Below are positions 38,176-63,859 of a DNA stretch of 64,000 nt, one piece after another (the first letter of the stretch is position 1; the number at the start of each line of letters is the position of its first letter). The notes beneath the pieces are model-generated. The model was not told where the DNA came from. It did no database searches and was given only the letters and a program-made list of their open reading frames with translations. Position numbers and translations under genes: made by a program. Source of the stretch: a virus; IMG/VR virus record IMGVR_UViG_3300021057_000011, positions 37,450-101,449 of that record; one strand, 5' to 3'.

Positions 38176-41100
38176 TCAGCGGTTCGATTTTTCGGAGCTG
38201 AAACCCGGGGACGGCACGGTCCGTGTCGGGGGCTTGTCCACGGCCTGCTGAATCTGGTCCTCCGTCGCGTTCGGGTTCGACAGCAGGGTGACCAGGGTGT
38301 CGAGCGACTGCAGGCCCTTCTCGAGATGGGCCTCATAGTTCTTGGTCGGGGTCGACGGCTTGCCGGCCATCATCGAGAGGACCTTGAACATCTGCTGCAT
38401 CAGCTGGACCTGGGTCCGGACATCGGATTTGACCTGGTTATCTGAGGCCGACTGGACCTGACGCTGGGTGGCCTTGTCGTGTTCTTTGGTGCGGCGGTTG
38501 GTGGCGGCGAGCTCCATGGCCGGCTGGTGATTGACCGTCGCCATGCTGTAGTCGAGGTCGTCGCTGACGACCCGCTTGCTGGCGGCCGAGCGGCGGGGGA
38601 TGCCCGAGCTTTGTGTCCCACGCAGAGCGGCTGCACCCAGGGTGGTGTTGCGCGGGTCGCTGTACAATTCGCGCTGTTTTCCGACGATTTCGGTGATTTT
38701 CTGGGTGTCCTTGAAGCCCACCGCGGCCGCGAATTTTTCCACGGCTTTGGTGAAGAGATCCGCTCCCTTGAGGAAGAGGGTTTCGGGCTTGAGGCCGGCA
38801 TTCTTGAGATCCGGGCGCAGCAGATCGGCCTTGGCATCGGCGTCGGCCTGGATCCGGGCCAAGGTCCCGCTGTCGAGCGATTTGCGGAACTGCTCGAAGC
38901 TGAGATGCGCCCGTTCTTTATCCGGTGCGAGGGTCCGCAGGTTCTCGATTTCGGCCTTGACCAGGTCATCGACAATTCCCCGGCGGGTCTGAATTTTCGC
39001 TTGCTGATCCTCAAGCTCAGTGTCGGGGGCGGTCTTTTGGAGGCGGCGGATAAAGCTTGCAAACGATTTGGCGTGTTCTTTGACGAAGGGCTTTTCCTTT
39101 TCTGAAATCCCGCCAGCCTTGATGTCGCCTAAGGCATTGCCGAAATCCGTGACTTCCTTGAGGATGTCGTCCCGCTTCGCACCGGAGGCAAACAGCGTAT
39201 TGATTTTGCGCGTCGTTTCAAACAGCTCCCCGATTTGGATTGCCTTGTTGACCGGTTCAGGCAAATTGTCCGCGCCAGTCTGGGCCCGGTAAATCGCCCG
39301 GAAAAGGTTGTTACGAGATTTGATCCGGAACTCGTCCCGATCCGCAATAGCCTTGGCGAGCTCGCGCTCTTCTTTTTTGAGCTCAACAGCCTGCTTGGCC
39401 AACTCGTTGATTTTGCGACGGGAATTGACCTCGTCGTTGAGCAGGAACTGGTATTGGCGTTGCGCGTTGCTCAGCCCCTCAGCCAGGTCCTCGGCATTCT
39501 GCCGCTCGATCTCTGCCTGTTCGTCGGGATTGACCGCAACCAGATCTCCAATCTGGTACTCCCGGGCCAGGGTGCTGCGCAGGCCGGCTTTGCGCCGGGC
39601 GGTCTCGTTGCGATCGGCGATCCGATCGAGGATCCCCTGCTGCTGCTGTTCGAACTGCAGCCGGCGGAGCTCGGCGTCCCCCTGTTCCTGGATGATGCTC
39701 ACCCGGGTCAGGTCCCGGTCCGCGGCGCGCAATTCCGCCCGTGAGGTGGGGACCGCACTCGTGCTACGAATGAGGGGAACTTGCTCAATCGCGATTTGGG
39801 TCCGGATCTGGACCGCATTCTGCTCCTGCAGATTGGCGACCTGGCGCAGCAGGTCGATGTCTTTCTGCCGCAGCTGCAGGAGCTTGTCGTAGGATCCCAA
39901 GGCCTGCCCGACGGCCTGGTTGAACTCGTTCACCAGCTGGGTGTACTGGTCTGTCCCAGGCAGGGCGGCATCCACCAGGCGGCTGAGGGCCCGGACCTGC
40001 TGGATTGTCCCTTCGAAAGCGCGGCCGCTGTCGAGGCTGTCGAGCTGCTGCAATGAACGGGTCACCGCATCGATCGCCGTGAGGGTGTCCGACAGGACCG
40101 CGGTCATTTCCCGGGCCAGTTCCGTGCGGCCGCGCAGGGCCTGCTCAGCGGCGATGTCCGCCTGCTCTTGCCGTAGCTTGGCCTCCTTAGCCTCGGGACT
40201 GTCGGCCAGCAGGGGGTTGGAAAAGACGTTGGCGTTGATCTTCCGGATTTCGCTGGCGGCATCCAGTGGGGTGATTCGCTTCTGGGCCAGGTCGGTCTGG
40301 ATTTCCTCGAGCTGCTTCTGGGCATCGTCGATCTGCTGCTGGGTCAGGTTCGAAATCTGGATGCCGGCATTTTTGGATTTTTCACCCACGTCGTTGATGA
40401 CCACACCGAGGGCCTCGAGGTTCTTGCGCAGCTGGTTGGATTCCCCCGCGGCCTGGCGCAAGGTGTTGATGAACTTGCTGATCGTCGTCGCACCGCTGGC
40501 GCCTTTGACATTGTCCTCCGGCCGCAGGGCCTTGAGCAGCCGGTCGAGATCCTTGAAGCCGGCCTCTCGGCCTTCTTCGGAATCGGAAGTGATAGCGCGC
40601 GAGATGATGGTCTGAAACTCTTTCAGGGTTTCAGGGTTTTCGATTTTGAAGCGCGATTGCAGATCTCCCAGGGCCTTGATCTCGCCCTTTTTGTTGGTGT
40701 CCTGCAGCTGCTTTTTCAGCTTGGCCTGAGTGTCCTGATTTTCAATCAGGATGGTCTGGAAGGTGTTCTGCTCGCTCAGCAGGCGCTCGACCCGGCCCAG
40801 GACGATGGGTCCGCGGGCCCGACGGTCTTCCTTTTTCTTTTCGCGCAGCAGCTCAGCGCCCTGCCGGTCTCCGCGAGAGGCTGTGAGCAGAATTTGTGTG
40901 TCGATGTTGTCACTGATCTGCTTGTCGCGAGCGGCTTCCTCTTCGATGACCGTGACCCGTTCATGGCCCTTCTTGGCGGTTTCGGTCTGGGCTTTGAGCT
41001 TGGCGACCAGGGCCTCTTCCGGGGCCAAGGCATCGCTGATCAGCTTGAGGTCCTTGAGCACGGCTTCCAGTCGTTTGGCTTGGGCTGTGGCGGCTTCGTA

Positions 41101-44100
41101 GTAGCCCTTTTCAATCGCCTGGTTTTTCTGCAGGGCGTTGATGCGCTCCTGCTCCTCTTTTTTCAACCGCTCGACGGCGAAGTAATACTGATCAACATCG
41201 GACGCGCGGTCGGCGGCCCGCCCTTTTTCGGCATCTGGTCCGATGAACGTCGGCACTTCGGCCAGGTCCTCACCCAACTGCTCGGTAGCTTTCTTGACCC
41301 CGCGGCGGGTCAGGAACTGGGCGGTTTGAATCTCGGGTGCCAGGCTCCGTTCTGCTGCAGCCTTGGCTCGGGCTTCCTCTGCACGGGTCTTTTCAAGCAG
41401 CTTTTCGAAAACGGGGATGGTCTTGCGCAGCTCTGCGGGGGTTTTGGCTCCGGCCACGAGATCTCCCAGGTCAGACTCGCCCGTGATTTTCTTGATCTGT
41501 TCAAACAACTGCGGCGAAACATTCCCGGTCAGCCGACGCAGGCGCCGTTCGTCCACGTTGGGGAACAAGGTTTTGTCCAGATCACCTAGAACTTTCCTGG
41601 ATGTGACTTCTGCTAAAATCAGTCCACCGAATCCGCCAATGGGTCCTAGACCGGGAATAGCAGATCCCGCGATAGCACCACCAACCCCGGCCACATTTGA
41701 AAGGGTGCCTATGGGTATAATCGGGGATTTACGAGTCAGCTGGGCAAACTGTTGCAGATAGGGATTTGAAATCTGGGGTTCCCCTACCAGTTCCCCTGTG
41801 GAGGCGATGACATCTTCCGCCACACCGGCAGCCAGGGCTAAAGGACCTGCCCCCCGAAGTTTCGAAAGACCGGCAAAAGCAGCTTCGCCCCCGGCCTGCA
41901 GAAAACCGCCCAACCCCCTCAGCGCAGCTCTTGGGTTTCGAATCAGCTGGTTGGCTTGCTGAACACGGGCACTGAAGGGGACACGGGGTTTGGGGGCTGT
42001 CAGCAGGTCATCGTACAGTCCCAGTCCGCGCAAGCTGTCCGCCCCCGCGACCGCGCGTCCTACCCGTTGCACCGTTGTCGGGGTTTGGGTTTTAAGGGCA
42101 TCGATGAGCTGCAACCCTTTTGCGCCGACAAAGGCTCCTCCGGCGATACTAGCCGCGCGCAGCCCCAGTCCCCCGATCTTTTGGAGCCCTTCCCCGGCAA
42201 AACGAGCGGAATCGATCGCAGCATTTCCGGTGCGATCGGTGAACAGTCGGTTGCCGGCAAAGAGCCGGGCGACATTTTCCGCCGAGGTGCGGGAGTAGGA
42301 ATCCGCTTCGTCCGTCAGGTACTGGTCCTTGCCGGCGGAATCGGCCGACAGGGCGGCCAGAAGAGAGACCAGGCCCAGGGCTCCGCCTTTGGAGAAGACC
42401 GTGCTGGCGACCTTGGGATTGGCGAACAGCGCGGGAATTCCCAGCGCCAGGCCGCCGATCGACAGGGCCGTGCCTGTGCCGTCGGGCAGACCGCCACCCT
42501 TGAGAAAGGCATCCAGCCCCTTGCGCAGCTCATTGAGCGCACTCAGCGGCTTGAAAATAGCCGTTGCGAAGACCGCAAAGCCGCTGGTGAGTTTTTCGAG
42601 AACAGAAAAGCCCGTGTTGCCGACGCTGACGAAGGCATTGGTCAGACCCAGGAAGGGCCCTTCCTGGGCACTTTCGCCGAAGGTCTGACCAAAGGCCTTG
42701 CCGATGTTGTTGAGAATGCCCAGCGTCAGCTGCTCGGTTTCGCGCAAGTTCTCCCCGAGCTCCTTGAGCCGGAGCACCCGCCCGGTGGTCTGAATTCCTT
42801 TGCGCAGGTCGTCAAAGGCCCCGATCCCTTCAAAGACCGAGTTGACCAGCGAGAACTTGAACACGCCGGCGGCCACCGAGCCAAAGGCGACCACTTCTGC
42901 ACTCAGCTGGCGCACAATGCCAATGCCGTCCTGGAGCTTGTCGAGCCCCGGCCCGAAATTTTTCAGGATCGCCTCGCCGATGTTGAGTCCCGCGCGCAAG
43001 GACGAGGCGGCCTTGAAGGTTTCCCCGCCAGCGAGGCCCTTGGCGATGTTGCGGTTTTCAAAGGGCAGGGCATGCAGGGCCGACAGGCCCTTGGGAATGC
43101 CTGCGGCGGCCTTGGCGCTGATCAGGCGAGCAGCCAGCGAGCGCTCGAGCGAAAAGCCCTTTTCGACCGCCCCTTTGGCAGTGAAATTGTCCAGCACGCC
43201 GCCGAAGTTTTCCACATCTCCCAGCAGAGCCCGCTTGGCCTTCTTGCCAATCGCGGAATCGATCCCGATCCGAGCGACGTTTCCGACCAGGCCGGTGGCG
43301 AAGTCGCCAGCCCGTTTGAGCACAAAAGGGGCGATGCCAATCGCGAAGACTGCGGCGATTTGGGCCTTGAACTTGACCATGAACTGGAGGAACTCGAGGG
43401 CGCGCTTCGTCAGCCCGCCGAACAGGCCGCCGACGTCCTCTTTGAGGTAGCTGGCGAAGGCCTTCGAGGCGGCCGAGGCGGATTGGTCCGCTTCGCCGAA
43501 GGCCCCAGCAAGGGTATTGGCTCCTTCGGCGGCCTGGACAAGGAAATTCGTGACTTCCTGGAACGAGCTCTCGGTGGACAGCCGGATGATGGTCTGGAGG
43601 AAGTCCTGGACGTTGGACGAAGCGCCTTTGAAGGTTTTTCCCAGCCGCTCGACGGTGCCGGCAAAACGCAGCTGGATGACTTTCTGGAGGGCCGAGACGG
43701 CTCCCTCGGAATCCTGGGCCGAGCCGGAAAAGCCGAAGGTCTTGAGATCCTCGCGGGAAATACCGTACTGGCGCAGGCGGACGAAGCGATTCTGGGTGGC
43801 GGCGATGAAGGCGTCCGTGGCCTGGTCGGGGGTCGTCCCAAAGGCGGCGGCGAGATCGACGATTGATTTGACCACCGAGCCCTGGTACTTCGGTCCCTTG
43901 GTGATGTCCAGATTGCCGGTCAGCGATTGCTGGGTGAAGCCTTCGGCTGCCAGTTTGTTGATCGTTGAAATCAGGTCCTTGCTCTCGAAAAAGGGCACTT
44001 CCAACGCAAAGGGCTGGGCGAAGCCTTCGAAAACCTTCTTGGCTTTTTCGGCTGTACCCAGCGTCGAGCTCAAGGTGGTGAGGAAGACTTCCAGCTGGGC

Positions 44101-46788
44101 GTTGGCTTCGATAAAGACCCCGGAAATGGCCGCGCCGATCTGCGACAGGGCATAGGAAACTTCCCCGATCAGGAACAGATCGCCCACAAAGGTCGAAAAC
44201 AGCGAGGCCGGTTCCGAGGCCCCCATAAGGGCATGCAGGGGTCCGCGGCCTTCGGGTGATCGTCCACCCCCACCGCCTCCGCCCCTGGGTGTCTTGGGCC
44301 CGCCAGGGCCACCAGACGAGGGGACAGTACGCCGGCGACCCGGCACAGGCAACCCGTGGGCTTCGCGTGCGGCGAGATTTTCCGCGGCAATGGCGGCATC
44401 GAGAATCTGCTTTTCTTCAATCCGCCGCTGCTGCAGTTCCGCCAGGCGGGATTCCAGCCGGGATTTGTGGATCGGATCGGTGACTTTGTCCTGGACCTCT
44501 TTGACCGAGCGGATATCTCGTTCCGTCAGTGCCAGTTTGCGCGCGGCCGCATGGAATTTCGGGCTGTTGGCCGAGGCCGCCACCGCGGCCGCCATGCCTT
44601 CCTCAAAGCCTTCCTTGACCTGTTTGCGCAGGTCCTTTTTCAGGTGCGCGGTGTACTTCGAGACATCGATCTGGCTGAGCTCGAGCAGCGCGGATTGCTT
44701 GTCCCGGACTTTGGAGATATCCCCCTGACCAAAGCGGGCGAACAGGCGCTCGAGAGAGGAGCGATTTGTGTCACTCAAGGAGCCACTCGGGGCTCGGAGA
44801 AGACCGTTGACGACCGGTTCCAGGCCTGCCAGTTCCGGAAGTTGGCTGGCAACCCCTAACCGAACGGACAGAGCGGAAGGACTGCCTTTTCCTTGCAGCT
44901 TCGCTTGTGCTTGGGCAAGTGGTCCAGAAGCACTCGGTGATGTCGCCAGTCCTTGTTCGAGTTCATCCAGAAAATCGTCAGAAAGCTCATTGATTAAACC
45001 ACCAATGTCGGAAACACCCTGGACTTCGCGTTTGGCGATACCGTAAAACGAATTCAGTTTGCCCCGCAGGGTTTCGCGATTGACTTCAATGCTCTCATCC
45101 GGTGCCTGTGTTTTGAGGAGGTTTCTGAATTCACGGTATTGACCCACAACTTCTGCGGCATGGGTTTTGGTGAGCTCATCGTCCGAAAAGCGCCCCATCA
45201 AGCCCGCAATTTGGGTTTTGTACCGCATCGAGGTGTCAGTGGTCGTATCTTCTTTAAGACCGTAGTACTTGAGGGTCGGAGCAGTGAGGGTTTGGAAGAG
45301 CTCAGACAGTGCAGCGACCCGTGATGTGACATGGGGAAAATTGGGATCGGCATCGGGTTCGATTTTTGCCCAGGGGCGTCCAAAGGAGCGCATCAATCCC
45401 AGGAACGCACTCTGATCTTCGGGGCTCAGGGTATTGTCCGGGCGCGCAACCAGCTGTTTGAGGAAGGCATCGACGCCCGTCAGCAATTCTGCAATATTTT
45501 TACGCGGCGGGCGATTGCCGCGCCCACCCCCAGGCCCTACAACCCCCCCAGACGCAAAATGGCCTCGCTTGAGCAATTCCTGGACCTGTCCCTGGTTGAG
45601 GACCACCTCCCCGGGATGCAGAATTCCCAGCAGACCCGGACCCTGGGAGCGTTTTCCCGGTCCCAGAATCCGGTTGATCCCACTGTGCGGGCCCAGGTTG
45701 CTGGCAAAGCCCCCGATTCCCCCTACCCCGCCACCGCTAGCGAAGCGGCCAAATCGTTTCTTGAAGTTCGGGTGCTCGATCGCCTGCTTGACGATGCGCA
45801 GGCCGCTGTAGTCATCCAGTGACGAGACGAGCTCCGGGGCCCGGTTCACCATTGCCTGGAGGGCGAAGCGGGACAGGGATTTCTGTAGCTCGGCGTTGCC
45901 GGTGAACGGTTCGTTGTTGGTCAGGATCAGGGGGTTGGACTTGTCCCGGAAGAACTGGTTCAGGGACTGGGCATTGCCGCTCGAGAGCACATGGTAGGCA
46001 TCGCGGACGAGATCGACCTTGCGGGCCGGGTCGTCAGTGAGGTCCCGGTAGTATTCGTTCAGGGCCTTGTGGTATTCCTTCGACATCGCGACGAACTTGC
46101 CCTGGGCCTGCTTGGCGACCGCGGCATTGTAGCTCGGGGCATTGGCCTTGAAGTGTTCCGCGACGTTGTCGGCAAAGCGGTTGCGCAGCGCGCCGTAGTA
46201 GGCGACCCGGAAGCCCGGGTCGGACCCGACCTTGGTGCCCAGCTCCCGCAGCGAGGCCGGCATGGGGGTAAACTCCCCGGTGGGTTTGGGTGTAGGTTTG
46301 GGCGCCGGCCGAATGTCCGGACCATAGGTCTGCTGAACTTGGCGGCTAAGGGCTTGTTTTTCTTCAGAGCTCAGACGCTGGATCGCTGCATCCCGCTTTT
46401 GGGTGTAGAGTGGCGATGGGGTCTCGCGCGAAGGCAGAGGCGTGCTGGTGCGAGGCCGGCCAATGTTGGGAGCTCCGGAGTCCGGGATAATGTTGAAATC
46501 CCGTCGCAGGTTCGTTTTTTTGGCTCGACGAGCAAGTTCAGCCTGAATGCGTTGCTCTTCTGCTTCTTTGCGAAGTGCATGCTGACGTAAGAGTTCCTCT
46601 TTTTCAACACGCCGCATATCACGGCCTGTCCAGGCTGTGTAGTCTTTTCCGGTCAGGCGCTGAAACTCTGCCCGCAAATCTCGGTGGATTTTGTGGGCCG
46701 GGTCGTCCGGGATATTACGTGCAAACTCCAAATTGTACTCAAGCGCTTTGAGCTCGGTCCACAGATAGTCGATACGGGCGATGTCCAT
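38176..46788 (-). CDS. Tape measure protein (2,870 aa)
   Basis: By far the largest gene. It begins one base after the stop of the chaperone fusion, with AGGGGG upstream. The product alternates long coiled coils with Gly/Ala hydrophobic stretches. The N-terminal part carries G-G-F/FASGG segments and LHPGEVVLNQGQVQ near residue 390. The middle (about 850-1,600) has typical tape-measure sequence with predicted membrane-like helices (VGGAIAGSAIPGLGPIGGFG), and the last 1,000 residues are mostly coiled coil. At the usual 0.15 nm per residue it predicts a tail near 430 nm. No peptidase or lysozyme motif was recognised inside it. Confidence 0.92.
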   Translation of the reverse strand: MDIARIDYLWTELKALEYNLEFARNIPDDPAHKIHRDLRAEFQRLTGKDYTAWTGRDMRRVEKEELLRQHALRKEAEEQRIQAELARRAKKTNLRRDFNIIPDSGAPNIGRPRTSTPLPSRETPSPLYTQKRDAAIQRLSSEEKQALSRQVQQTYGPDIRPAPKPTPKPTGEFTPMPASLRELGTKVGSDPGFRVAYYGALRNRFADNVAEHFKANAPSYNAAVAKQAQGKFVAMSKEYHKALNEYYRDLTDDPARKVDLVRDAYHVLSSGNAQSLNQFFRDKSNPLILTNNEPFTGNAELQKSLSRFALQAMVNRAPELVSSLDDYSGLRIVKQAIEHPNFKKRFGRFASGGGVGGIGGFASNLGPHSGINRILGPGKRSQGPGLLGILHPGEVVLNQGQVQELLKRGHFASGGVVGPGGGRGNRPPRKNIAELLTGVDAFLKQLVARPDNTLSPEDQSAFLGLMRSFGRPWAKIEPDADPNFPHVTSRVAALSELFQTLTAPTLKYYGLKEDTTTDTSMRYKTQIAGLMGRFSDDELTKTHAAEVVGQYREFRNLLKTQAPDESIEVNRETLRGKLNSFYGIAKREVQGVSDIGGLINELSDDFLDELEQGLATSPSASGPLAQAQAKLQGKGSPSALSVRLGVASQLPELAGLEPVVNGLLRAPSGSLSDTNRSSLERLFARFGQGDISKVRDKQSALLELSQIDVSKYTAHLKKDLRKQVKEGFEEGMAAAVAASANSPKFHAAARKLALTERDIRSVKEVQDKVTDPIHKSRLESRLAELQQRRIEEKQILDAAIAAENLAAREAHGLPVPGRRRTVPSSGGPGGPKTPRGGGGGGGRSPEGRGPLHALMGASEPASLFSTFVGDLFLIGEVSYALSQIGAAISGVFIEANAQLEVFLTTLSSTLGTAEKAKKVFEGFAQPFALEVPFFESKDLISTINKLAAEGFTQQSLTGNLDITKGPKYQGSVVKSIVDLAAAFGTTPDQATDAFIAATQNRFVRLRQYGISREDLKTFGFSGSAQDSEGAVSALQKVIQLRFAGTVERLGKTFKGASSNVQDFLQTIIRLSTESSFQEVTNFLVQAAEGANTLAGAFGEADQSASAASKAFASYLKEDVGGLFGGLTKRALEFLQFMVKFKAQIAAVFAIGIAPFVLKRAGDFATGLVGNVARIGIDSAIGKKAKRALLGDVENFGGVLDNFTAKGAVEKGFSLERSLAARLISAKAAAGIPKGLSALHALPFENRNIAKGLAGGETFKAASSLRAGLNIGEAILKNFGPGLDKLQDGIGIVRQLSAEVVAFGSVAAGVFKFSLVNSVFEGIGAFDDLRKGIQTTGRVLRLKELGENLRETEQLTLGILNNIGKAFGQTFGESAQEGPFLGLTNAFVSVGNTGFSVLEKLTSGFAVFATAIFKPLSALNELRKGLDAFLKGGGLPDGTGTALSIGGLALGIPALFANPKVASTVFSKGGALGLVSLLAALSADSAGKDQYLTDEADSYSRTSAENVARLFAGNRLFTDRTGNAAIDSARFAGEGLQKIGGLGLRAASIAGGAFVGAKGLQLIDALKTQTPTTVQRVGRAVAGADSLRGLGLYDDLLTAPKPRVPFSARVQQANQLIRNPRAALRGLGGFLQAGGEAAFAGLSKLRGAGPLALAAGVAEDVIASTGELVGEPQISNPYLQQFAQLTRKSPIIPIGTLSNVAGVGGAIAGSAIPGLGPIGGFGGLILAEVTSRKVLGDLDKTLFPNVDERRLRRLTGNVSPQLFEQIKKITGESDLGDLVAGAKTPAELRKTIPVFEKLLEKTRAEEARAKAAAERSLAPEIQTAQFLTRRGVKKATEQLGEDLAEVPTFIGPDAEKGRAADRASDVDQYYFAVERLKKEEQERINALQKNQAIEKGYYEAATAQAKRLEAVLKDLKLISDALAPEEALVAKLKAQTETAKKGHERVTVIEEEAARDKQISDNIDTQILLTASRGDRQGAELLREKKKEDRRARGPIVLGRVERLLSEQNTFQTILIENQDTQAKLKKQLQDTNKKGEIKALGDLQSRFKIENPETLKEFQTIISRAITSDSEEGREAGFKDLDRLLKALRPEDNVKGASGATTISKFINTLRQAAGESNQLRKNLEALGVVINDVGEKSKNAGIQISNLTQQQIDDAQKQLEEIQTDLAQKRITPLDAASEIRKINANVFSNPLLADSPEAKEAKLRQEQADIAAEQALRGRTELAREMTAVLSDTLTAIDAVTRSLQQLDSLDSGRAFEGTIQQVRALSRLVDAALPGTDQYTQLVNEFNQAVGQALGSYDKLLQLRQKDIDLLRQVANLQEQNAVQIRTQIAIEQVPLIRSTSAVPTSRAELRAADRDLTRVSIIQEQGDAELRRLQFEQQQQGILDRIADRNETARRKAGLRSTLAREYQIGDLVAVNPDEQAEIERQNAEDLAEGLSNAQRQYQFLLNDEVNSRRKINELAKQAVELKKEERELAKAIADRDEFRIKSRNNLFRAIYRAQTGADNLPEPVNKAIQIGELFETTRKINTLFASGAKRDDILKEVTDFGNALGDIKAGGISEKEKPFVKEHAKSFASFIRRLQKTAPDTELEDQQAKIQTRRGIVDDLVKAEIENLRTLAPDKERAHLSFEQFRKSLDSGTLARIQADADAKADLLRPDLKNAGLKPETLFLKGADLFTKAVEKFAAAVGFKDTQKITEIVGKQRELYSDPRNTTLGAAALRGTQSSGIPRRSAASKRVVSDDLDYSMATVNHQPAMELAATNRRTKEHDKATQRQVQSASDNQVKSDVRTQVQLMQQMFKVLSMMAGKPSTPTKNYEAHLEKGLQSLDTLVTLLSNPNATEDQIQQAVDKPPTRTVPSPGFSSEKSNR

Positions 46789-60568: not shown

Positions 60569-63500
60569 TTAGCGTCCTCTCAAAAAATCGTTGCGGCCGC
60601 GCTCGTGGAGGATGTTCTCCACCGGCTCGGCCAGGTACGTGGCTTCGTCTTTGGCCCCCCAATTGGCCAAGGCCAGGGAATCGGGGTAGTCGTCATGGGG
60701 GTCGACCCCATCCACCTTGTCCGCCGGGGCATGGCAGGACAAATAGCCGGAGCGATCCGAGCCGGCTTTGTATTCCTTGATCAGGGTGCGCATCTGGAAG
60801 CAGAAGCGCTTGTGCTGGGGGCTGAGCATCGCCAGCGGGGAGCCCGGGACGATGATGCGGCCGGACTGGACATCGTGAATCAGGGCCTTGTAGAGCTCGC
60901 TCTTGCTTGGCAGCGAGAAGGTGTAGGGCAGGATCAAAATATCCCCAAGAGCGGCGTCGAGGTAGTCGTAGACCACGGCACCCAAGCTCGTGGTATCGAC
61001 CACCACCGTCGAGCCCTGCATCTCCTTGATGAAGCGGACCATGGCGGGAATCTGCTCGGTGTAATTGTCCCCGACCATCTCCAGCCAGCCGAGCAGCCGC
61101 TTGCGGTAGGCGGTGGTGTAAGCCAGCTCGATCGGCTGCTGCATGTCGATTTCCAGCGCCGTCAGAATGGTGCTGTCCTTGGCCTTGCCGACGTCGACGC
61201 CGATGCTGACGGGGTTGAAGCCCCGGTAAAAGGTCAGCAGCTCGAGCTTCGGGTGCAGGATCCCATGGGGATTTTCCGGCGTGCGGTGGGACAATTGGGC
61301 CTCGGTGAAGGCCATGCCGCGCTCGAAGCACCACTCGTTGAGGTAGGACATCCGAAACTCGTCGGAGTCTTCGCCGAGCTTTTCCTTTTCCTTCTCGATG
61401 TACTTCTTGTAGCGGGGGACATGACGCTCGACCTCGCGGTGGTCGACCTCGAAGTGGTTGATTTTGCCGCCTTTTTTCGCCGCCCGGGTGTTCTTGTCGA
61501 CCTGCTCGTAGAGGTCGTTGAGCTGGGTGTTGGCCGTACCGATCATGACCACCGTTCCGGCGGTCGAGGCCGCCATGGGGGAGATGGAGTTGGAGCTGAC
61601 CAGGCCATTGGCAATGAAATTGCGACCAGGAAGCGTCAGGCAGTAGGTCTCCCCCAGCCCGATTTGATGGATTCGCTCTAGCTGATGCCAGCTCAACTCG
61701 GCAGAAGCCGTCCCCCGGCTGGCTAAAAAAACGACGGACTCTTGAAGCAGCCGCGACACCGTATAGTAGTCCGGCTCCGCCTCCAAGGATCCCAATTTCG
61801 CCCACATCTGGTGATTGAGGGTGGCATCGATGTACCAGCCAAGCTGACGATCCCCCACCAACCGGTACAGGGGCTGAATGCCGTTGACGTGCCGTTCCGT
61901 CGGCTGCTGCCACCCGTCTTTGGTCAGGACATCGTAGGTGAAACCGGCTTCGATGTAGTCCCTGAGCTTGATCGTCCACGCTCCATTTTGGACGGGGGTG
62001 GGCCGGTCATCGACCTTGATGAAAATCTCGGTATCCCCAGCCAGGCACTTCCTGATCTTCTTCGGGCTGACGTCCTGGGCTTCTTCGATGATGATCAGGT
62101 GGTAGGTTTTCGACTCGATCATGGCCGATTCCGAGGCCGTCTGGCAGCGGGTCAGGGAGCCGTTGGACATCCGGATCGTATCGCCGCGGTTGACTTCGAA
62201 GGAAATGCCATATTCGCGCATGATGCGACGGCCTTCGTCGTTGGCCAGGCGGGTGCGCATGCGGTCGTAGGTGGTCTTGGACTGGTCTTGCGACGGCGAG
62301 AAGATCCCGATCCAGAAGCCGTCGCGGTATTTTTCGAAGCGCTTGTCGTCGGGGTAGGTGTGGTGCAGGTAGGGCAGCAGGAGCATCATGGCATCGCAGA
62401 CGACGGCGATCGTTTCGGTCTTGCCGGAATTGTGCTGCAGGATCGTGTTGCCGAAGAACTGCTGATCAAGCGTCTCGATGTCGATCAGGGGCTGGGTCGG
62501 TCCGCGGTCGATGCGCAGGATCGGGGCAAAGCAGACCGAGGGGATCAGGGGCTGGCCGTCGGGGAGGGGGGCGAAGGCCTCCTGCTCGGTGACACCGATT
62601 TTTTTGAGCAGGTTGAGCAGCACACAGAGCAGGACCCCGTTCTCCCGGTAGAAAAAGAAGGTCGAGCGCTTCATCCAGTGCTTGAGGTGGGGGTGGGCCT
62701 TCATGACCCGCATGAAGTCCGCCGGGGCCAGCATGTAACCCGTGCGGGCCTTGTAGTGGTCGATGTAGTGCGCGAGCTCCCCGTGCAGGGCATCGTCCCG
62801 GAAATAGGGCTGCAGCCGCTGGCAGTTCTCGAAGCCCGAAAAGACCAGCTTGCCCTCGTGCTCGGTCGGGCTGAGCCCGTGGTGGCGGAGGAAGTAGAGC
62901 AGGGTGGCGTACCACTGCTGGTTGGAGCGAACCGGCAGGGTGATGATCGGGATTTGCTTGCGGTTGTTGCGCCCCATTTCGAGCGTGGCGAGCTTCATCA
63001 GCCAGTGGAGGGTCGTGCGGGGATTGGCAAAGGCATAGGCCAGAATCTCGGCTTCCTTGGCCGGCCCGATCTCGACGGAATGGATGCAGCGGTCGCGGGT
63101 CCGGGAGAAGGAGACGTTGAGGAGCGCGAGGAGGGCATCGTGGTCTGACGGGCGAATGGACAGCGTCAGCTGGTGGGGCAGGACCGAATTGTAGCGTTTG
63201 TGGGCCATCAGCTGGGCGGCATAGAAGCAGCGGGCGGAGAGGGAGGGATCGTCGGGGGTGGCGTCGGCCAAGAGGGAGACCTGGACCTGGAGCTTGGCCC
63301 CTTCGGCGACGGTGCCGTCAGACAGCATTCCCCACTGGTTGTTGGCGAGCTTGAGCAGATGGTCGAGGCTGCAGGTCAGGGAGATCCCGTTGTGGAGGGT
63401 GAGGATGCGGGTTTCTTTGGCCTCGGTTTTTTCCGTTGCCAGGACGGTCGTGGGGGTCAGCCGGCGGCCGTGGGCCGACAGGATGGCGGTCTGGGGGGTG

Positions 63501-63859
63501 AGGGCGGAGATCGGCCGGGGGCCGGCGTCGGTCAGGACATAGGTGTCGGGGTGGACGCACTGCCGGGCGAACAGGCCGGTCAGGGTGGCGACATCCTCCA
63601 GGATGACGGACTCGATGATCCTGCGGGCAAAGGGCAGCTGGTAGGGGCGGAGTTTGGTGTTGGCCAGCTTCTCGCCCAGGGCGAGCATCTTCTCGATGAT
63701 CTTGGAGGTCGGGTGGGGGCAGATGCCGGCGGGGGCCCGCGGGCCCGGGGTCGTGGGCAAGGGTGCCGGCGGCGGCTGGGAAGGTGTGGGCGTCGGGGGA
63801 GGTTGGGGGACGGGCTGGGACGCACTATAAAGACGGGTATTGAACAAACCGAAGGACAT
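60569..63859 (-). CDS. Large terminase subunit interrupted by two inteins
   Basis: The 1,096-codon gene encodes a packaging ATPase/nuclease of about 566 residues after removal of two inteins (residues 101-477 and 605-757). The N-terminal ~45 residues are Pro-rich. The joined P-loop reads LFARQ+SGKTE; Walker B is HLIIIEEAQD, and the coupling motif follows the second intein (SISPMAASTAGT, MIGTA). The nuclease has GVDVGKAKDS, VVVDTTSLG and DPHDDYPDS as the three acidic sites. Both inteins sit in catalytically essential segments, so packaging requires splicing. The frame stays open upstream of ATG 63859, but AGGTGG precedes that ATG. Confidence 0.92.
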   Translation of the reverse strand: MSFGLFNTRLYSASQPVPQPPPTPTPSQPPPAPLPTTPGPRAPAGICPHPTSKIIEKMLALGEKLANTKLRPYQLPFARRIIESVILEDVATLTGLFARQCVHPDTYVLTDAGPRPISALTPQTAILSAHGRRLTPTTVLATEKTEAKETRILTLHNGISLTCSLDHLLKLANNQWGMLSDGTVAEGAKLQVQVSLLADATPDDPSLSARCFYAAQLMAHKRYNSVLPHQLTLSIRPSDHDALLALLNVSFSRTRDRCIHSVEIGPAKEAEILAYAFANPRTTLHWLMKLATLEMGRNNRKQIPIITLPVRSNQQWYATLLYFLRHHGLSPTEHEGKLVFSGFENCQRLQPYFRDDALHGELAHYIDHYKARTGYMLAPADFMRVMKAHPHLKHWMKRSTFFFYRENGVLLCVLLNLLKKIGVTEQEAFAPLPDGQPLIPSVCFAPILRIDRGPTQPLIDIETLDQQFFGNTILQHNSGKTETIAVVCDAMMLLLPYLHHTYPDDKRFEKYRDGFWIGIFSPSQDQSKTTYDRMRTRLANDEGRRIMREYGISFEVNRGDTIRMSNGSLTRCQTASESAMIESKTYHLIIIEEAQDVSPKKIRKCLAGDTEIFIKVDDRPTPVQNGAWTIKLRDYIEAGFTYDVLTKDGWQQPTERHVNGIQPLYRLVGDRQLGWYIDATLNHQMWAKLGSLEAEPDYYTVSRLLQESVVFLASRGTASAELSWHQLERIHQIGLGETYCLTLPGRNFIANGLVSSNSISPMAASTAGTVVMIGTANTQLNDLYEQVDKNTRAAKKGGKINHFEVDHREVERHVPRYKKYIEKEKEKLGEDSDEFRMSYLNEWCFERGMAFTEAQLSHRTPENPHGILHPKLELLTFYRGFNPVSIGVDVGKAKDSTILTALEIDMQQPIELAYTTAYRKRLLGWLEMVGDNYTEQIPAMVRFIKEMQGSTVVVDTTSLGAVVYDYLDAALGDILILPYTFSLPSKSELYKALIHDVQSGRIIVPGSPLAMLSPQHKRFCFQMRTLIKEYKAGSDRSGYLSCHAPADKVDGVDPHDDYPDSLALANWGAKDEATYLAEPVENILHERGRNDFLRGR
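61589..62047 (-). mobile_element. Mini-intein 2 in terminase (153 aa, after Walker B)
   Basis: Residues 605-757 of the terminase begin CLAGDTEIFIKVDD (block A, Cys1). They contain IDATLNHQMW (block B T-x-x-H) and end ETYCLTLPGRNFIANG then LVSSN before Ser+1. The length leaves no room for a homing endonuclease, so this is a mini-intein. The penultimate residue is Ser instead of the usual His. It lies between IIIEEAQDVSPKKIRK and the SISPMAASTAGT segment of the extein, close to the ATPase coupling motif. Confidence 0.85.
62429..63559 (-). mobile_element. Intein 1 in terminase (377 aa, inside Walker A)
   Basis: Residues 101-477 begin CVHPDTYVLTDAG (block A, Cys1). Block B is LTLHNGISLTCSLDH, with Ser at the T-x-x-H threonine position. 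Block F is PLIDIETLDQQFFGN, and the intein ends TILQHN with Ser+1. It separates ARQ from SGKTE of the P-loop. The ~230-residue middle has the length and helical rhythm of a LAGLIDADG endonuclease (ARCFYAAQLMAH; HWMKRSTFFFYRENG), but the acidic active-site residues are not visible, so the endonuclease is probably decayed. Confidence 0.88.

Follow-up and report, generated by a model that had tools for sequence, protein, structure and literature searches.

A phage large terminase gene with two inteins at conserved ATPase sites

We analysed a window of 64,000 nucleotides, which corresponds to bases 37450-101449 of a 101,449-bp IMG/VR virus record. A gene on its minus strand, at 60569-63859, is by its sequence a phage large terminase (TerL) gene, and the best explanation of its structure is that inteins have entered it on two occasions, both at conserved ATPase sites, with class 1 splicing of both giving a motor of 566 amino acids. 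We put the probability of this reading at about 0.9. Its direct support comes from the anatomy of the frame, the precision of the insertion sites, the empty and filled sites in relatives, the homology of the segments to inteins, and the homology of the first intein in three phages. A sequence-only reading of this DNA had proposed two inteins in one TerL frame, and the motifs, the exact empty sites and the intein matches confirmed it. The features, all on the minus strand, are as follows.

60569-63859 (-): TerL precursor, 1096 aa; start codon uncertain
63560-63859 (-): N-extein, aa 1-100, ending ...TGLFARQ (first half of Walker A)
62429-63559 (-): intein 1, 377 aa, precursor aa 101-477, C1...HN-S, inside Walker A (ARQ-SGKT)
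63290-63559 (-): intein 1, N-terminal splicing part, with Cys1 and with SLDH for block B TxxH; right limit approximate
62810-63079 (-): intein 1 insert, LAGLIDADG-like core; limits approximate, each line of evidence weak
62555-62809 (-): intein 1 insert, helical module with approximate limits, one of the best conserved regions
62429-62554 (-): intein 1, C-terminal splicing part, blocks F and G, ending ...LIDIETLDQQFFGNTILQHN
62048-62428 (-): middle extein, aa 478-604, from SGKTE (rest of Walker A) through Walker B (LIIIEEAQD) to KKIRK
61589-62047 (-): intein 2, 153-aa mini-intein, precursor aa 605-757, C1...SN-S
60569-61588 (-): C-extein, aa 758-1096, coupling motif region (STAGTVVMIGTAN) and nuclease domain

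The gene is located at the right end of the record. Its start codon is uncertain because the reading frame is still open upstream, up to the record end. The predicted N-terminus (63740-63859 (-)) is proline-rich at about residues 16-40, a stretch that is missing from the relatives, and the true start may lie downstream of it. Downstream of TerL are an RNase H-like gene, an endolysin gene and the genes for the portal, the scaffold and the major head protein, and genes for DNA polymerase A, a RecA-like and a DnaB-like protein are found further left in the window. This gene content is as expected for a tailed phage. The longest open frame in the window, of 2870 codons, is at 38176-46788 (-). When bacterial genomes were searched for the TerL, no close relative was found; the matches were distant TerLs only, several of them in Streptomyces records.

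Without residues 101-477 and 605-757, the joined exteins amount to 566 residues (63.7 kDa). The joined protein matched Pfam Terminase_6N (PF03237) at 23.8 bits, where the cut-off is 22, and among the PHROG TerL families (PHROG 2 and 9) it matched phrog_2 with an E value of 3.8e-22, whereas a Pfam search of the unspliced 1096-residue precursor gave no terminase match. In alignment with phage TerLs, the 566 residues aligned with Walker A, Walker B and the TerL core motifs intact, and both intein boundaries fell at sites that are empty in relatives.

Intein 1 splits the P-loop between ARQ and SGKTE (LFARQ/CVHPDT...GNTILQHN/SGKTE), just as the sequence-only reading had placed it, and alignment with intein-free relatives confirmed this position. 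The terminal residues required of inteins are all present (C1, N377 and S+1). Block B reads SLDH, with Ser for Thr and the His kept, block F is LIDIETLDQQFF, and the end is QHN. The only match to TIGR01445 (intein N-terminus) in the whole 101,449-bp record was at residue 1 of intein 1, with a score below the cut-off; individual profile scores of each intein were below the curated cut-offs. A profile built from three sequences of intein 1 matched the gp41-1 intein (6qaz) with an E value of 0.0018, in register at both ends (profile positions 6-71 in the N-terminal part and 332-367 in the C-terminal part).

Intein 2 interrupts the chain just after Walker B (KKIRK/CLAGDT...ANGLVSSN/SISPM), a placement confirmed by the alignment, and it matches the Ssp DnaB mini-intein. 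This match (1mi8, E value 1.8e-4) extends over blocks B, N4, F and G and includes TxNH. Block B reads GWYIDATLNH, in which both Thr and His are present, and block F is ETYCLTLPGRNFIANG, with a Cys (ETYCLTLP). With C1, a terminal Asn, Ser+1, TxxH, blocks F and G and no endonuclease, the segment has the composition of a mini-intein. Its penultimate residue is Ser instead of His; splicing without this His is known from work cited in a review (PMC4031507). No close relatives of intein 2 were found in phages or IMG/VR. A single-sequence structure model of it was discarded (pLDDT 38).

Whether the two boundaries are continuous in other TerLs was examined by alignment with Streptomyces phages BRock, pSt2308 and LuckySocke, IMG/VR relatives, and two gut-phage TerLs. 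Relatives read through both boundaries without a gap, as in FSRQSGKTETV and NYKIRKSIHPMGAS of L002. The list of relatives was the top 80 by score, which biases it toward intein-free genes. The counts for intein-free relatives (83/83 continuous at site 2 and 82/83 at site 1) therefore show continuity to be the normal state of the sites and give no frequency of filling. A Ser is present at +1 in 76 of 86 TerLs that have no intein at site 1, and K-S is by far the commonest residue pair at site 2. In L047, the sole exception at site 1, the P-loop is broken by an insertion that is not an intein: about 0.3 kb containing stop codons (L047:316-612) lies in the P-loop codons after FSRQSGK. Downstream of the P-loop this TerL is about 91% identical to that of L009, which is intein-free. 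The insertion is possibly an intron; an Rfam search of it gave no credible match.

These alignments bear on the idea that the two segments belong to the normal fold of a TerL subfamily, as inserted domains. Nothing was found in favour of this idea. On that idea intein-free TerLs would keep the segments as folded domains; the relatives are continuous instead. Intein-like ends lie at exactly the empty sites, inteins of 140 to 374 residues occupy the same sites in relatives, and the segments match solved inteins (6qaz and 1mi8). We consider the idea extremely unlikely and rejected it.

We then looked for TerLs in which the sites are filled. A scan of IMG/VR for DNA encoding HN-SGKTE returned 78 stretches, of which 11 were in TerL relatives (L134, L123, L138, L125, L136, L145, L147, L152, L098, L102 and L111). 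As L098, L102 and L111 are near-identical, at least nine distinct other TerLs have an intein at the site-1 bond; such pattern scans detect only SGKTE sites with HN ends, so that these counts are minima from which no frequency can be derived. All site-1 inteins whose left end is present begin at an RQ-C junction. Many of the other HN-SGKTE matches look like intein junctions in other SGKTE proteins, which suggests that this bond is a general intein site. The site-2 bond is filled by large inteins in at least three TerLs, those of Bacteroides phage BS162P1, L166 and L196, and the TerL of MT835482 has an intein eight residues beyond it. The most likely origin of intein 2 is a homing intein whose endonuclease has been lost, because other phages have large inteins at this site, with LAGLIDADG motifs that are clear in BS162P1 and L166.

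Two of the TerLs, L134 and L123, which are the nearest relatives of the window TerL, carry a P-loop intein homologous to intein 1 together with a second intein in the nuclease domain (HDD(Y/A)-C...HN-CD, at L134:1958-3046 and L175:2301-6176). The corresponding site of the window TerL, HDDYPDS, has no intein. Extein identity to the window is 53% for L134 (51.6% in the main segment) and 42% for L123 (40.8%), and the identities of intein 1, 33% and 24%, run parallel to these values. A quick maximum-likelihood tree of 96 TerLs grouped the window with L134 and L123 (SH-aLRT 99), and L134 with L123 (97); the branches of this tree are long and its deeper placements are not to be trusted. The P-loop intein was thus most likely already present in the common ancestor of the three phages and inherited with the gene. 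In the simplest history, one branch would have gained or kept the nuclease-site intein, and the other branch intein 2.

In the record of L123 (L175:2301-6176), the homologue of intein 1 has SNMER at block B where the window has SLDH, and its frame is open. The block B His is described as the most conserved residue of inteins (PMC4031507), and here an Arg appears to stand in its place; this homologue may be defective or may use another residue, as in Tko CDC21-1.

The notion that one or both segments are decayed inteins that no longer splice, and that the gene is dead, draws on such departures: the Ser in block B of intein 1, the penultimate Ser of intein 2, and the apparent loss of the block B His in the L123 version. 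Against it, the frame is open over 1096 codons, the extein motifs are intact, and both inteins have Cys1, block B His, terminal Asn and Ser+1. We therefore judged a dead gene very unlikely, and rejected it on account of the open frame and the intact motifs.

The insert of intein 1 was examined for an endonuclease. The LAGLIDADG signature is absent from it in all three phages. The first motif has no acidic residue in the window and L123 (L134 is truncated there), and the catalytic position of the second motif is Glu in the window and L134 and Thr in L123. The insert is thus not a two-motif LAGLIDADG endonuclease with its catalytic acids, whereas other site-1 inteins have clear canonical motifs ending in DG. 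An AlphaFold model of intein 1 from three sequences had a mean pLDDT of 50, with moderate confidence only at about residues 165-265, where the order helix-strand-strand-helix-strand-strand-helix fits half of a LAGLIDADG fold; the model was poor elsewhere. Homing endonucleases recurred among the weak Foldseek matches of this model in PDB and BFVD, none with an E value of 0.001 or lower. A LAGLIDADG fold can be assigned to the insert only weakly. Searches of Pfam and PHROGs with intein 1 and its relatives gave no match, the helical module included. No relatives of the insert were found beyond L134 and L123, and in one such search the matches were weak and confined to the N-terminal splicing part of other inteins.

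Comparison of the three sequences provided a view of how the insert has changed. Between the window and L134 the insert core is 34% identical, the helical module 35% and the C-terminal splicing part 30%; between the window and L123 the helical module is 31% identical, the splicing parts 21-23% and the core 18%. With three sequences the pattern is suggestive only, in that the insert appears roughly as conserved as the splicing parts and is not clearly decaying faster. The sequence-only reading had seen two inteins at different stages of decay. The mini-intein and the degenerate nuclease motifs of intein 1 agree with this, but for the domain of intein 1 decay is too simple a description, since in the three phages its insert is about as well conserved as the rest.

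This conservation could also mean that both elements are plain selfish inteins with no effect beyond their removal, and that intein 1 is still homing by means of a divergent nuclease. The Glu at the second catalytic position in the window and L134, as well as the canonical motifs of other site-1 inteins, would fit such a nuclease; the first motif without an acidic residue and the Thr of L123 at the second do not, and since the three inteins track the TerL tree, recent homing is unnecessary. We regard this alternative as possible, though not favoured. That the insert has been kept for a role other than homing, for example in helping or timing splicing of the motor, as in a domesticated intein, seems doubtful.

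The proposed mechanism proceeds from a precursor that would be translated whole, each intein folding into a Hint domain. By the class 1 route, the acyl shift at Cys1 would be followed by attack of Ser+1 and Asn cyclisation, upon which the intein would be excised and its flanks joined. We infer splicing of both inteins from their intact motifs and from mycobacteriophage TerL inteins, whose splicing has been demonstrated (PMC5050341). The P-loop would stay broken, and the motor inactive, until intein 1 leaves. With breaks in the P-loop and in the stretch that links Walker B to the coupling motif, the precursor is expected to be unable to hydrolyse ATP, and DNA would be packaged only by the doubly spliced 566-residue protein. 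The claim that both inteins sit at catalytic sites holds for site 1; site 2 is not at a catalytic residue but in the interval that separates Walker B from the coupling motif.

A dependence on splicing raises the question of a post-translational switch, in which redox, temperature or another cue would delay splicing so that packaging starts on time. In its favour, the P-loop intein of M. smegmatis DnaB is known to splice conditionally (PMC6195587), a switch has been proposed for the two-intein TerL of Mic1 (PMC7156551), intein 1 has seven cysteines and intein 2 has two, and the insert of intein 1 has been retained. On the other side, nothing in the window sequence indicates regulation, homing alone predicts intein sites in conserved ATPase motifs, and both sites are empty in most relatives. 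Such a switch, which the sequence-only reading had suggested and which the Mic1 authors had proposed in much the same form, is a conjecture by analogy, and we consider it improbable.

Comparison with known systems, made from the accessible parts of the published accounts, places the window TerL among several relatives in kind. In the TerL of cyanophage Mic1, two different inteins have been published, the large one with an endonuclease domain, and the authors proposed fine control of packaging (PMC7156551). The Mic1 inteins are in the ATPase and nuclease domains, whereas those of the window are both in the ATPase domain; in this layout L134 and L123 are closer to Mic1. The TerL of the crAss-like Delta cMAG OBYQ01000140 likewise consists of three in-frame pieces with two inteins; unlike in the window, its TAG codons are recoded and its inteins are described as of the Hint-Hop type (PMC7886860). 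The view that two inteins in one TerL are uncommon therefore needs qualification, given these two published cases and the pairs in L134 and L123.

The mycobacteriophage inteins TerL1-a to -e and TerL6-f also occupy ATPase-domain sites, including the P-loop, Walker B and the coupling motif (PMC5050341). TerL1-a is between Lys and Thr and TerL1-b one residue away, and the Gln-Ser break of the window is three residues before TerL1-a; the accessible part of that account contains no mention of two inteins in one mycobacteriophage TerL. The BS162P1 intein (WAX08797.1) is exactly at the site of intein 2 and ends SGN-S, with Gly for the penultimate His; it is full-length (357 residues, with LAGLIDADG motifs), in contrast to the 153 residues of intein 2. 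M. smegmatis DnaB resembles the window TerL as an essential ATPase with two inteins, one of them in the P-loop, of which one is slow and oxidation-sensitive and the other fast; its P-loop intein is a mini-intein of class 3, whereas that of the window is large and has Cys1 (PMC6195587).

A TerL with two inteins is thus already known in phages, and the window is a further example with unusual detail and not a new kind. The accessible open-access literature did not show this pair of sites, Gln-Ser in the P-loop and Lys-Ser after Walker B, although such an absence is weak evidence, and the window extends the range of two-intein layouts among phage TerLs. Within one TerL group there are at least four intein sites (Gln-Ser in the P-loop, Lys-Ser after Walker B, the position eight residues on, and HDD in the nuclease domain), filled in differing combinations. 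If the motif-less insert of intein 1 is functional, it would offer a natural test of a phage turning a parasite of its packaging motor into a control element.

Two further observations concern the annotation of intein-bearing TerLs. A different TerL, that of podovirus MW202478.1 (L087:1669-3540), has a mini-intein in its C-terminal nuclease region (NDH/CFHGDT...IVHN/CMDA) and is annotated as large terminase protein only. The intein-bearing TerL of BS162P1 (L003:2872-5595, WAX08797.1) is annotated as a hypothetical protein.
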